Of a DNA stretch of 15,955 bases, positions 6,638 to 10,133 are shown piece after piece. Positions within the stretch are counted from its first letter, which is position 1. Each line of letters begins with the position of its first letter. Source of the DNA: Gammaproteobacteria bacterium (GTDB lineage Bacteria > Pseudomonadota > Gammaproteobacteria > Enterobacterales > Kangiellaceae); the NCBI GenBank assembly GCA_013372875.1, contig JABXIW010000439.1, positions 1 to 15,955 on the forward strand. Direction: 5' to 3'. The position numbers were made by a program, and so were the translations under genes. A model generated the notes under the pieces. That model saw only the letters and a list, made by a program, of their open reading frames with translations, was not told where the DNA came from and did no database searches.

Positions 6638-8674
6638 CTAGAACTGGTATCCGTAGCTAAGCATGAACTCGGCTGGTGCGCCGTAGCCAATCTGGTTTAG
6701 GCCAGACGTGCCGTTTGTTGCGCCAAGAATGTATTTCTCATCCAAAATGTTGTAAGCGTTCGCTTGGATCTTGTGACGACCAGTGGTGTACGCCGCCATC
6801 AAATCCACCGTGGTGTAATCGCCAAGTGCGACGGCTTCGTCGTTACCTGCATAACGGTCGCCCACGTATTTCACGCCGCCACCCAAACGCCAGTTGTCAT
6901 CCAATTGGTAAGTGCTCCAAAGGGAGAACAAGTGGTCTGACACATCATTCGGCTTTTTACCTGTGGCTTTGTCTTCTGCGTCCAAGTAGCTGTAACCAAC
7001 AGAGATATCCCACTGTTTGGTGATTTGGCCGCGAGCTTCTAGCTCAATGCCTTGGTGACGTACTTCAATTTTGTCGATGACATCGCCGTCTACGTTGGTT
7101 TGTGGCTGCTCTTGGTCGATCTGGAACAGTGCCGCATTCAACATTAATGCGTTATCCAGCAGGTACGCTTTCGCCCCCACTTCTTTTAGGTCTGTATGGA
7201 AGAATTCCGCCAACTTTGGATTGATGTAGATGCCTGCGTACGGCAACTGCCAAGAGCGCGCTAAACTGGCGTAAACGGAGGTGTCGTAATTGATGCGGTA
7301 TACCAAACCAGCGCGATAGCTGACTTTGTCATCGTCCAATTTTTCCTTACCTGAACCCGCTTTTTGTTGTTCGAGTTCCATCGAGTCGTAGCGCACATTA
7401 CCGATCACAGAAAGGTCGCCCCACGTGTACACATCTTGCACGTACACACCCGTGGTTGTGGTGGTATTGTCACGGAATGGTTTGAAGCCCGGATCGGGTG
7501 TTGGGCCCACAACTGGGTTGTAGATATTTTGCGGGGGAAGCGTTTTATCACTTGCCAACGTCAGGTCGATATCAATTTGGTTGAAATCCGCACCCAACAT
7601 CAATTGATTGTCGTTGGTTTCCCAAATCAGCTCAGATTGCAAAGTGGTTGTAGTACGAGGATCGTAACCAAAATTGTTCACGGTTTGAGACACTTCATTG
7701 CCCGTCACTTTGCCCTGACGCGTGCCTTTTTGCTCAAGTTCGATATGGTTGAACGCCGCTCGGTTGTTCCATACCCATTGATCGTTCAAACGCCATTCGT
7801 AGTCCACTGCAACGCGAAGACTGTCCGACTCCTGATAATCGTTCGTGCCACCAAAGTAAGTACTCACTGGCAAATCAACTGGCTTGCCATTTTTTGATGG
7901 CACACCACGATATGGCACTAATTCTTGATGGGCGTATTCCACGTCAATATCAATGGTGTGACCGTCCGCTGGCAACACGCGAATGGTCGGCGCGATGAAG
8001 AAATCGTTCGAATCAACATGATCGACGTAAGAATCGGCCTGACGGTATTCCAAGTTAATACGTCCGTTGACCTTGTCAGAAAATGCCATTGAGCTGTCGA
8101 CTTGACCAACATACTGGCTGTTGCTGCCCACACTACCTTTTACGTGGGTGAAGTTATCGCCGTTAGCGCGCTTCGTCACCAAGTTGATGATGCCACCTGC
8201 CGAGCCACGGCCATACAGCGCGCCTGCCGGGCCTTTCACAATTTCAACGCGCTCAACGTTCGCCAAACTGCGGTAAGACTGCAACGTACCGTCGTCTCGC
8301 ATGCCGTCACGGTACATATCATTGAGTGAATCAAAACCACGGATCATGAACTGATCGCGGCTGCCTTCACCCAAGGTGTTATTGACCCCAGCCACCCCAT
8401 CTAACGCATCCACTAAGCGCACCGCGCCGCGATCTTGCATTTCTGTTTTGGTCACCACCGAGACCGCTTGCGGCACATCAAGCCACTCGACGTCCGTTTT
8501 GGTGCCCGATTGAGGCATATGTTCAGCGTAACCTTCGTACTGGTGTCCGTAGACTTGAATGGTTTCGGTTGCCGATGGGGTTGAGTTTGTCTCTTCTGAA
8601 GCCACTGCGCTTGGTACCACTAGTGAAGAACCAATCGCGACCGCCAAAGGGGTCAGGGTCAATAATTTATTCAT
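6638..8674 (-). CDS. psuA: TonB-dependent siderophore receptor PsuA (PvuA1)
   Basis: Outer-membrane TonB-dependent receptor of 678 residues, first gene of the uptake operon. In V. parahaemolyticus the psuA product has been recognised as a second ferric-vibrioferrin receptor (PvuA1). Signal peptide about 1-26 (ending AVAS), TonB-box-like TETIQVYGHQ (36-45), plug with VPQAVSVVTKTEM (68-80) and VKGPAGALYGRGSAGGIINL (146-165), and a barrel ending SYGYQF. The plug resembles the ferrichrome/hydroxamate-type receptor branch rather than FecA, so the two receptors here are not simple tandem duplicates. ATG at 8674 is chosen because it gives a clean signal peptide, with GGA about 8 nt upstream. The frame extends to a TTG at 8725, but that lies inside the Fur site and is rejected. 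Confidence 0.94.
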   Translation of the reverse strand: MNKLLTLTPLAVAIGSSLVVPSAVASEETNSTPSATETIQVYGHQYEGYAEHMPQSGTKTDVEWLDVPQAVSVVTKTEMQDRGAVRLVDALDGVAGVNNTLGEGSRDQFMIRGFDSLNDMYRDGMRDDGTLQSYRSLANVERVEIVKGPAGALYGRGSAGGIINLVTKRANGDNFTHVKGSVGSNSQYVGQVDSSMAFSDKVNGRINLEYRQADSYVDHVDSNDFFIAPTIRVLPADGHTIDIDVEYAHQELVPYRGVPSKNGKPVDLPVSTYFGGTNDYQESDSLRVAVDYEWRLNDQWVWNNRAAFNHIELEQKGTRQGKVTGNEVSQTVNNFGYDPRTTTTLQSELIWETNDNQLMLGADFNQIDIDLTLASDKTLPPQNIYNPVVGPTPDPGFKPFRDNTTTTTGVYVQDVYTWGDLSVIGNVRYDSMELEQQKAGSGKEKLDDDKVSYRAGLVYRINYDTSVYASLARSWQLPYAGIYINPKLAEFFHTDLKEVGAKAYLLDNALMLNAALFQIDQEQPQTNVDGDVIDKIEVRHQGIELEARGQITKQWDISVGYSYLDAEDKATGKKPNDVSDHLFSLWSTYQLDDNWRLGGGVKYVGDRYAGNDEAVALGDYTTVDLMAAYTTGRHKIQANAYNILDEKYILGATNGTSGLNQIGYGAPAEFMLSYGYQF

Positions 8675-8682
8675 TCCATAAT

Positions 8683-8710
8683 TCCGTTTAGTTGTTATAA
8701 AGCCAACGGA
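8683..8710 (-). promoter_or_regulatory. Inverted repeat overlapping the psuA ribosome-binding site
   Basis: TCCGTT (read 8710-8705 on the minus strand) is a perfect complement of AACGGA (8688-8683), with a 16-nt loop. The 3' arm contains the GGA that serves as the psuA Shine-Dalgarno. If the transcript starts at or upstream of 8710, the hairpin could partly mask the ribosome-binding site. The stem is only 6 bp with a large loop, so stability is modest. Confidence 0.35.
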
Positions 8711-8715
8711 TAGAA

Positions 8716-8744
8716 ATAAGAACAAATATTATTTACATTTGCAA
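8716..8744 (-). promoter_or_regulatory. Candidate psuA promoter (minus strand)
   Basis: On the minus strand, TTGCAA (8744-8739, 4 of 6 to TTGACA) is followed by a 17-bp spacer and TCTTAT (8721-8716, only 3 of 6 to TATAAT). Transcription would begin near 8709, about 35 nt before the psuA ATG. The Fur-box-like palindrome fills the spacer. The -10 match is poor, so the exact promoter is uncertain, although a promoter in this region is required by the gene layout. Confidence 0.4.
8721..8739. promoter_or_regulatory. Fur box between the divergent psuA and pvsA operons
   Basis: The 19-mer aacaaatattatttacatt, read on the minus strand as AATGTAAATAATATTTGTT, matches the Vibrio-type Fur consensus AATGATAATNATTATCATT at 12 of 18 informative positions. 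It has the expected dyad layout and lies in the AT-rich divergent promoter region of iron-uptake genes. It occupies the spacer of the candidate psuA promoter and abuts the -35 of the candidate pvsA promoter, so one Fur-bound site could repress both operons when iron is plentiful. Vibrioferrin genes are known to be Fur-regulated. A weaker second site nearby cannot be excluded. Confidence 0.7.
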
Positions 8745-8766
8745 TATTAATTTTATGCTCTATATT
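8739..8766 (+). promoter_or_regulatory. Candidate pvsA promoter (plus strand)
   Basis: TTGCAA (8739-8744, 4 of 6 to the -35 consensus) is followed by a 16-bp spacer and TATATT (8761-8766, 5 of 6 to the -10 consensus). Transcription would start near 8773, giving a leader of roughly 149 nt before pvsA. TTGCAA is its own reverse complement, so the same six bases can serve as the -35 of the divergent psuA promoter. Confidence 0.5.
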
Positions 8767-8773
8767 TATTTAC

Positions 8774-8921
8774 CCTAAAAACACAAGCAACAACAAAAAA
8801 TCAAACACAATAACAATAAAGACCAAACCTTCTGCCCCGTAGCCTCGCGAGAGGCACACTGGAAGCCGACTGTGAGCAGACAGTATCAACGTTAGGAAAT
8901 GTTAGAAAATTAGGAAAGCTC
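8774..8921 (+). promoter_or_regulatory. Long 5' leader of the pvsABCDE mRNA
   Basis: The leader has distinct zones. Bases 8774-8830 are an A/C-rich, probably unstructured tract with only two G residues, a plausible Hfq-binding or ribosome-standby region. Bases 8842-8855 form a perfect GCCTC/GAGGC hairpin with a GCGA (GNRA-type) tetraloop. Bases 8858-8878 are complementary to the RyhB core. Bases 8869-8884 can form a local ACTGT/ACAGT stem whose 6-nt loop shows GAGCAG. Bases 8892-8917 carry three near-copies of TTAGGAAA, the last one holding the AGGA Shine-Dalgarno 6 nt before the pvsA ATG. The length and layering suggest post-transcriptional control. The 5' end rests on the candidate promoter only. 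Confidence 0.6.
8858..8878 (+). promoter_or_regulatory. Predicted RyhB small-RNA pairing site in the pvsA leader
   Basis: ACTGGAAGC (8858-8866) is a perfect 9-nt complement of GCUUCCAGU, and TGTGAGCA (8871-8878) is a perfect 8-nt complement of UGCUCACA. In the RyhB core these two segments are adjacent, separated by UU, and here they are separated by CGAC. The pairing is thus 17 bp around a small internal loop. The RyhB sequence is recalled from E. coli; its core is conserved in vibrios. RyhB is made when Fur is inactive, the same condition in which pvsABCDE is needed, so a positive effect is expected. Confidence 0.65.
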
Positions 8922-8924
8922 ATG
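8871..8924 (+). promoter_or_regulatory. Possible start-codon-masking helix of pvsA
   Basis: TGTGAGC (8871-8877) can pair with GCTCATG (8918-8924) as five Watson-Crick pairs plus two G-U wobbles, enclosing a 40-nt loop and covering the pvsA ATG. The left arm is also half of the predicted RyhB site, so RyhB binding would be incompatible with this helix. The helix is short and competes with a local 8869-8884 stem, so it needs structural testing. Confidence 0.4.
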
Positions 8925-10133
8925 AAATCTACGATGATTATCGTAAGTCATGTCGTTAATGATGCAGTCACTCACGGCTTCGTGCCTGCAGCTAAAGCGA
9001 TGGACCTCCACGTCGTTCTTATCACCGATCACAAGCTCAGCCATTTAGAACTGGCAAGTCGTGATAGTCACTTTAATCCGGATACCATTCTAGAGTGCGA
9101 TGTCTTCAATCCCTTGGAGATCATCGAAACCATCACTGAGAATGAGTTAAAACCCGACGCTATTTTCAGCAATAGTGATCACTTACAAACTTCCACCGCC
9201 ATCTGCGCACAATTTTTTGGTCTACCGGCCAAAGATTGGTCTGTCACGTTAAAGGCCAAAAACAAACACTTAACTCGACAAGTGTTGAATGAAAAAGCCC
9301 TACCCAACACACAAAGCTGTTTGCTGCACCGCCATTCGAATGTGGCATTAGGCATGGCCTTCCCTGTCGTAGCAAAACCCAAAGAAGGCGTGGCGAGTTT
9401 GGATGTGCAGCGCTGTGACTCCCAAAGCGAGCTCGACGCATACTGCGATGCGTTTTGGCAAAAACACCCAAACGCCGCCATTCTGGTGGAGCAATTCCTT
9501 CAAGGGCCTTTGGTTACGCTCGAAACTCTGGGAGATGGTGAGCGCCTTATCGCCGTGGGCGGTTTTGATGTGTCGCTCTCTGAACCGCCTTACTTTATCG
9601 AAACAGCCGCAGACTGGAACGGACCAAACGGCATTGCTCACCGAGAAGCTTGTTTGGCTCAACTGAAAGCGTTCGGCGTTGGTTTTGGAGTTTGCCACAG
9701 CGAATTTATCATCACGGAAAACGGCCCAGTTCTGGTGGAAATTAACTACCGCAGCATTGGGGACGGTCGCGAATTCTTGCTCAACAATCTCGCTCACTTC
9801 GGTTGGTTTAGCACAATTTTAGGTCTGCATTTGGGCCGAAGATTGGATGGCGATTACCAAATTCATGGCTCAGCACACGTGCACTATGTGGTTGCGGAGC
9901 ACAGTGGTGTGATTGATGGAGATTCGACCTCCTTCATCCAACACGATGGCGATGTCATCACCCAGCAACAGGTACTAAAAACCGCGGGAGAACTCTTCCA
10001 ACAGAGTTATTCAAACAAGGATTATCTCGCCCGAATTTCGATTGTCTCGCCATCGGGGCGATACCTCGACCAAGCACTGCAGAACGCGCTTAACAATTTC
10101 AATCTAGCTCCGACTCGCGAGGTGGCAGCATGA
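8922..10133 (+). CDS. pvsA: Vibrioferrin biosynthesis ATP-grasp ligase PvsA
   Basis: Cytoplasmic ATP-grasp carboxylate-amine ligase of 403 residues, first gene of the vibrioferrin biosynthesis operon. An N-terminal Rossmann-like preATP-grasp part (1-120) precedes the ATP-grasp core: VVAKPKEG (149-156, nucleotide-binding Lys152), ILVEQFLQG (187-195) and EFIITENGPVLVEINYR (261-277), with metal-binding residues Glu273, Asn275 and the conserved Arg277. Such enzymes activate a carboxylate as acylphosphate and join it to an amine. The likely job is forming an amide involving L-alanine in the alanine/2-oxoglutarate half of vibrioferrin, but I am not certain which step it performs. ATG at 8922 has AGGA 6 nt upstream. 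Its TGA overlaps the pvsB ATG as ATGA. Confidence 0.93.
   Translation: MKSTMIIVSHVVNDAVTHGFVPAAKAMDLHVVLITDHKLSHLELASRDSHFNPDTILECDVFNPLEIIETITENELKPDAIFSNSDHLQTSTAICAQFFGLPAKDWSVTLKAKNKHLTRQVLNEKALPNTQSCLLHRHSNVALGMAFPVVAKPKEGVASLDVQRCDSQSELDAYCDAFWQKHPNAAILVEQFLQGPLVTLETLGDGERLIAVGGFDVSLSEPPYFIETAADWNGPNGIAHREACLAQLKAFGVGFGVCHSEFIITENGPVLVEINYRSIGDGREFLLNNLAHFGWFSTILGLHLGRRLDGDYQIHGSAHVHYVVAEHSGVIDGDSTSFIQHDGDVITQQQVLKTAGELFQQSYSNKDYLARISIVSPSGRYLDQALQNALNNFNLAPTREVAA

Follow-up and report, generated by a model that had tools for sequence, protein, structure and literature searches.

A predicted RyhB pairing site in a Vibrio vibrioferrin operon leader and its conservation within the genus

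Introduction

Under low iron, Fur releases both ryhB and the vibrioferrin operon; at shiA, RyhB is said to activate its target by opening the ribosome-binding site. Tanabe et al. (2013, J Bacteriol 195:3692) reportedly described an interaction between RyhB and the 5' leader of this operon (RyhB - pvsOp) in V. parahaemolyticus. According to passages of PMC5225090, deletion of ryhB lowers vibrioferrin in V. parahaemolyticus; the same source and parts of PMC11790442, both citing Tanabe et al., have RyhB promote vibrioferrin, probably by stabilising the operon mRNA with the help of Hfq. An excerpt of PMC12645228 describes a joint increase of RyhB and vibrioferrin synthesis in strain 5HP, which strain 2HP does not show. 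In other systems, VaRyhB activates the anguibactin genes of V. anguillarum (PMC11790442, in part), and an excerpt of PMC4211561 describes RyhB as exerting mostly negative regulation on iron-containing proteins, while citing activation of shiA translation in E. coli.

The locus analysed here is closest to RyhB - pvsOp, with which it shares the RNA, the operon and, by sequence tests, the species; the strain differs from the nearest available genome, G001, by a C at position 8859 where G001 carries a T. RyhB - shiA (Prevost 2007) likewise combines leader pairing with an activated iron-acquisition function, but translation is what is activated in E. coli, whereas no opening of the ribosome-binding site is predicted here. 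VaRyhB - anguibactin is also a case of a Vibrio RyhB promoting siderophore genes, the siderophore being different.

Results

The DNA analysed, a stretch of 15,955 nt (hereafter the window), holds a vibrioferrin locus: minus-strand receptor and ABC-transporter genes (two siderophore receptors and FecB/C/D-like proteins) and a plus-strand operon that starts at the ATG at 8922 and encodes an ATP-grasp-like protein, a siderophore synthetase, an MFS exporter, a second synthetase and, truncated by the window end, a decarboxylase. All family matches of the plus-strand genes fall below the curated cut-offs, including the ATP-grasp-type match of the first gene, the open reading frame pvsA (8922-10133, plus strand), whose product is 97% identical to the V. 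diabolicus homologue. The names pvs and pvu are those that we take to apply to this locus, on the strength of the first-pass annotation and the cited papers. Within the window, no Rfam family scores as high as its gathering threshold. Ahead of pvsA, the ribosome-binding site AGGA (8912-8915, plus strand) is invariant in 25 aligned leaders, and a likely promoter (TTGCAA, 16 nt, TATATT; 8739-8766, plus strand) matches the consensus at 9 of 12 positions. Promoter-like sites at 8732-8766 number three, overlapping, against 1.0 +/- 0.9 in shuffles; the consensus scan of 8600-9000 returned no other, and the promoter stretch is also visible in the leader alignment. Transcription of pvsA would, from these motifs, start near 8773, and the only promoter-like sites found by the scan lie upstream of the RyhB site described below.

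By its sequence, the window almost certainly comes from V. parahaemolyticus. Its identity to G001 is 98.7% across 4209 bp of gap-free alignment; G087, which has the same leader as V. diabolicus, reaches 93.4%, and G194 91.9%. Both V. parahaemolyticus gyrB primers match G001 exactly and give a 285-bp product; the toxR reverse primer is exact and lies 367 nt from the forward primer, which has one mismatch. Three of these four diagnostic primer sequences (all but toxR forward) are assumed here to be correct. The gyrB forward primer has three mismatches in each of three other near genomes, and among five other genomes the toxR forward primer finds no match within two mismatches in four and a two-mismatch match in one. 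Given the gyrB and toxR products in G001 and its 98.7% identity to the window, we therefore take the window as V. parahaemolyticus. Between its assumed ends, RyhB of G001 measures about 232 nt; the length given for V. parahaemolyticus in a passage of PMC11790442 is 233 nt.

The ryhB used for pairing with the window was that of G001, which scores 67.3 bits against a gathering score of 55. The first-pass annotation had matched two leader blocks, ACTGGAAGC at 8858-8866 and TGTGAGCA at 8871-8878 with CGAC between them, to consecutive RyhB core blocks at a 4 by 2 spacing; the G001 gene agrees, its core reading TGCTCACA-TT-GCTTCCAGTGT, so that both blocks are present and in the right order. RyhB of G001 contains TGCTCACATTGCTTCCAGTGT, to which the leader is complementary over 11 + 8 nt. 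Block 1 is in fact ACACTGGAAGC (8856-8866, plus strand), the 11-bp complement of GCTTCCAGTGT in ryhB L001, and block 2 is the 8-nt complement of TGCTCACA (8871-8878, plus strand): the 17 bp originally put forward were thus right as to the blocks and too short as to their extent, block 1 reaching two bases further 5'. The internal loop drawn between the blocks fared similarly, its spacing being correct while the predicted optimum closes it by pairing CGA with UUG, leaving two single-base bulges. The predicted hybrid has an energy of -30.3 kcal/mol, with opening costs of 11.97 for the leader and 4.28 for RyhB, a net of about -14 kcal/mol. The site sits 44-66 nt ahead of the pvsA start codon, at a clear distance upstream of the ribosome-binding site. 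C8859 gives a G-C pair with RyhB; among the 19 other distinct Vibrio sequences, G001 included, 18 have T (a G-U pair) and one has G, making C8859 either a private change of this strain or a sequencing difference. A perfect ACTGG is accordingly seen in the window only.

Chance had been judged a very unlikely source of this match, and shuffling bears that out: of 2000 dinucleotide-shuffled leaders, not one reached the observed hybrid energy, and neither did any of 2000 shuffles of the 44-nt RyhB core region. The tests used the core only because the hybrid of full-length RyhB, which joined nearly the whole length of both RNAs at -74.6 kcal/mol, is uninformative without accessibility. When the window was scanned as 526 overlapping 178-nt segments on both strands, the best 8 of the 526 were headed by the two segments that contain the site (-37.4), followed by a plus-strand segment running from 8701 to the site (-34.5) and one on the minus strand (-33.6).

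Among 227 genomes of the genus, 24 gave a PvsA match at E <= 1e-100. RyhB scored above the gathering score in all 22 PvsA genomes searched, with an identical core in all 22; of the remaining two, G219 has RyhB, while the fragmented assembly G220 (leader L061; about 340 contigs) yielded none at E <= 0.001, though its leader keeps the pairing site. One genome, G007, carries a second RyhB-like sequence besides its main ryhB (L059, contig C2 284237-284304; 52 bits, where the gathering score is 55), in which a complete RyhB core sits between different flanks. The pvsA match of G179 (L029) comes in two parts that overlap (residues 1-116 and 89-403), pointing to a disrupted gene or a faulty assembly, and this leader was left out. 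With identical leaders counted once, 26 distinct leaders were compared, 25 from Vibrio and one from Aliivibrio (L004); that of V. rotiferianus (L006) has an approximate offset in the hybrid test, was aligned by its locus coordinates and was excluded from the opening-cost and site-CDS pairing sets.

In all 25 distinct Vibrio leaders, the strongest hybrid with the RyhB core overlaps the orthologous position; for 24 of them no more than 14 of 400 shuffles match its strength, the exception being G033 (37 of 400). Conservation across Vibrio pvsA leaders, on which the first-pass annotation had made its reading depend, is therefore seen throughout, although the leaders are related and the 25 cases non-independent, so that all such counts are descriptive and carry no probability measure. 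Pairing in register, scored at 19 positions of the 19 other distinct Vibrio sequences, holds in 297 of the 361 cells (270 Watson-Crick and 27 G-U, with 61 mismatched and 3 gapped), against at most 178 when the alignment is slid by 1 to 6 columns. Substitutions within the site do not by themselves favour pairing (27 G-U against 61 mismatches), and the mismatches are clustered, 50 of the 61 falling at 8856-8858 and 8862. Block 2, where GTGAG is invariant in the 25 aligned leaders, has a mean column identity of 94%, and block 1 one of 76%, near the level of the flanks (71% and 73%); for this reason selection is plain on block 2 and weak on block 1.

Outside Vibrio, the Aliivibrio leader L004 gives no significant hybrid (130 of 400 shuffles as strong), its weak hit overlapping the same place, and the two leaders of genus g2 lack the site (L069, 221 of 400; L070, 120 of 400), with the RyhB core intact in both genomes. 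As L070 has the same sequence as L004, these are two Aliivibrio-type leaders, not three. G301, from another genus (L071), encodes a PvsA that is 64% identical and has GTGAGCA at -40, with a predicted hybrid of -18.5 kcal/mol. The contig of G301 ends upstream of pvsA in what we take to resemble a sequencing-library transposon adapter, and its first bases are therefore probably not genomic.

Two further elements lie near the site. Directly 5' of it, sequence and folds indicate a hairpin, GCCTC-GCGA-GAGGC (8842-8855, plus strand), whose stems vary by clade: GCCTC/GAGGC in the window, CTCTTTC/GAAAGAG in many others and GCCTT/AAGGC in G075, G180 and G107. Folding of this region is unusually stable, with no more than 15 of 300 shuffles matching it, in 11 of the 21 distinct sequences; the mean z is -2.03. 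The other 10 do not stand out in this way, among them V. harveyi-type G031, V. rotiferianus, G220 and Aliivibrio. Downstream, TCAACGT (8887-8893, plus strand) has a mean column identity of 95%, comparable to that of block 2, and is largely kept where the RyhB site is missing (L004 of Aliivibrio has AACAACGTT). Judged by eye, a third pairing block could form in the window and G001 between this element and ACGTTGA in the 5' part of RyhB; this was dropped because the element does not change along with RyhB, which has ATGTTAA in other species, and because the element persists in Aliivibrio without the site. A 7-codon GTG frame (8872-8895), preceded by GGAAG, overlaps the RyhB site; it was set aside as a mini-ORF, its end, by eye, varying among several relatives.

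Discussion

We consider it highly probable (about 0.9) that 8856-8878 is a RyhB pairing site in the vibrioferrin operon leader of V. parahaemolyticus and that the resulting duplex protects the operon mRNA, giving more siderophore. Upon iron limitation, Fur would let go of ryhB and of the vibrioferrin operon; RyhB, together with Hfq, would form some 19-21 bp with the leader at a clear distance upstream of the ribosome-binding site; and this duplex would shield the long operon mRNA from decay, so that more siderophore is made. The segment is presumably the published pairing region of RyhB - pvsOp, and what the duplex blocks would be a nuclease step. The first-pass expectation that RyhB activates here, against its usual role, and its statement that stimulation of vibrioferrin had already been reported in V. 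parahaemolyticus are both borne out by the passages of PMC5225090 and PMC11790442.

Activation could also work as reported for shiA translation in E. coli (cited in a passage of PMC4211561), with RyhB opening a leader fold in which the ribosome-binding site or start codon is buried; the sequence allows a helix of 7 bp, two of them wobbles, across the start codon, UGUGAGC at 8871-8877 facing GCUCAUG at 8918-8924. This candidate helix was rejected for the window, where the ribosome-binding site gains nothing from blocking of the RyhB site: its opening costs 4.52 kcal/mol with the RyhB site free and 4.49 with it blocked. Of 25 leaders, three (L009, L022, L028) show a drop of more than 0.5 kcal/mol on blocking and several others a rise, and GCTCATG is replaced by GCCCCATG or similar in many relatives. 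With the site upstream of the ribosome-binding site and blocking without effect, opening of the shiA type is disfavoured, and we regard it as improbable; stabilisation is the better fit. A possible competitor of RyhB for the site lies within pvsA itself: CTCACGGCTTC (8971-8981, plus strand) emerged from the site-CDS pairing test as complementary to the site, and the RyhB-core-like codons 17-20 could hold it in a long-range helix that RyhB must displace. The window has 11.6 expected site-CDS pairs against a mean of 5.4 for synonymously shuffled versions, 2 of 40 of which reach that number, and G001, G087, G194, G081, G047, G131 and G031 also have at least 7 (1 to 5 of 40 shuffles as high). Expected pairs are thus at least 7 in 8 of 25 leaders but below 2 in the other 17, of which 16 are Vibrio leaders with the RyhB site, so that the coding-region competitor is only a weak lead; moreover, the CTCACGGCTTC segment is also held by the protein sequence, and translating ribosomes would break such a helix. 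It is improbable that RyhB acts through this competitor, and equally so that, within the V. parahaemolyticus-diabolicus group, it displaces the leader-coding-region helix in such a way that activation amounts to competition with the message's own coding sequence.

Two further accounts seem very remote. Repression of the vibrioferrin operon would be in keeping with RyhB as a largely negative regulator of iron-containing proteins (PMC4211561, in part), yet the site, 44-66 nt upstream of the ATG, lies outside the initiation region, and the lower vibrioferrin of the ryhB deletion (PMC5225090, in part) contradicts it. A chance match, or maintenance of TGTGAGCA for some other reason such as a DNA-binding site or a leader peptide from the GTG at 8872, would account for block 2 being much better conserved than block 1, and the 7-codon frame is indeed readable by eye; it sits poorly with the in-register pairing and with the absence of any equally strong hybrid among 2000 shuffles, and the short frame ends variably. 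Counting against RyhB pairing and mRNA protection themselves are (i), the cost of opening the leader site, about 12 kcal/mol; (ii), the conservation of block 1, no better than that of the flanks; (iii), strain 2HP, in which, according to part of PMC12645228, vibrioferrin expression did not follow RyhB; (iv), G220, which keeps the site in its leader although its fragmented assembly yielded no RyhB; and (v), the relatedness of the leaders, the excess of mismatches over G-U pairs within the site, the 37 of 400 shuffles in G033 and the overlap of the non-significant Aliivibrio hit with the same place.

Activation of vibrioferrin by RyhB in V. parahaemolyticus is already known, and the find is real and ordinary. 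What we add is small: the conservation of the site across the genus, its absence in Aliivibrio, the hairpin adjoining it and the private C8859. Cross-species conservation of the site goes without mention in the literature passages on RyhB and vibrioferrin drawn upon here, Tanabe et al. (2013) aside, and we do not claim it to be unpublished. Sequence alone recovers a case, reported by others, in which RyhB activates a siderophore operon. The RyhB site has been maintained in the Vibrio vibrioferrin leaders examined, and the Aliivibrio-type leaders lack it, which leads to a comparative prediction: RyhB would not act on the vibrioferrin leader of Aliivibrio.
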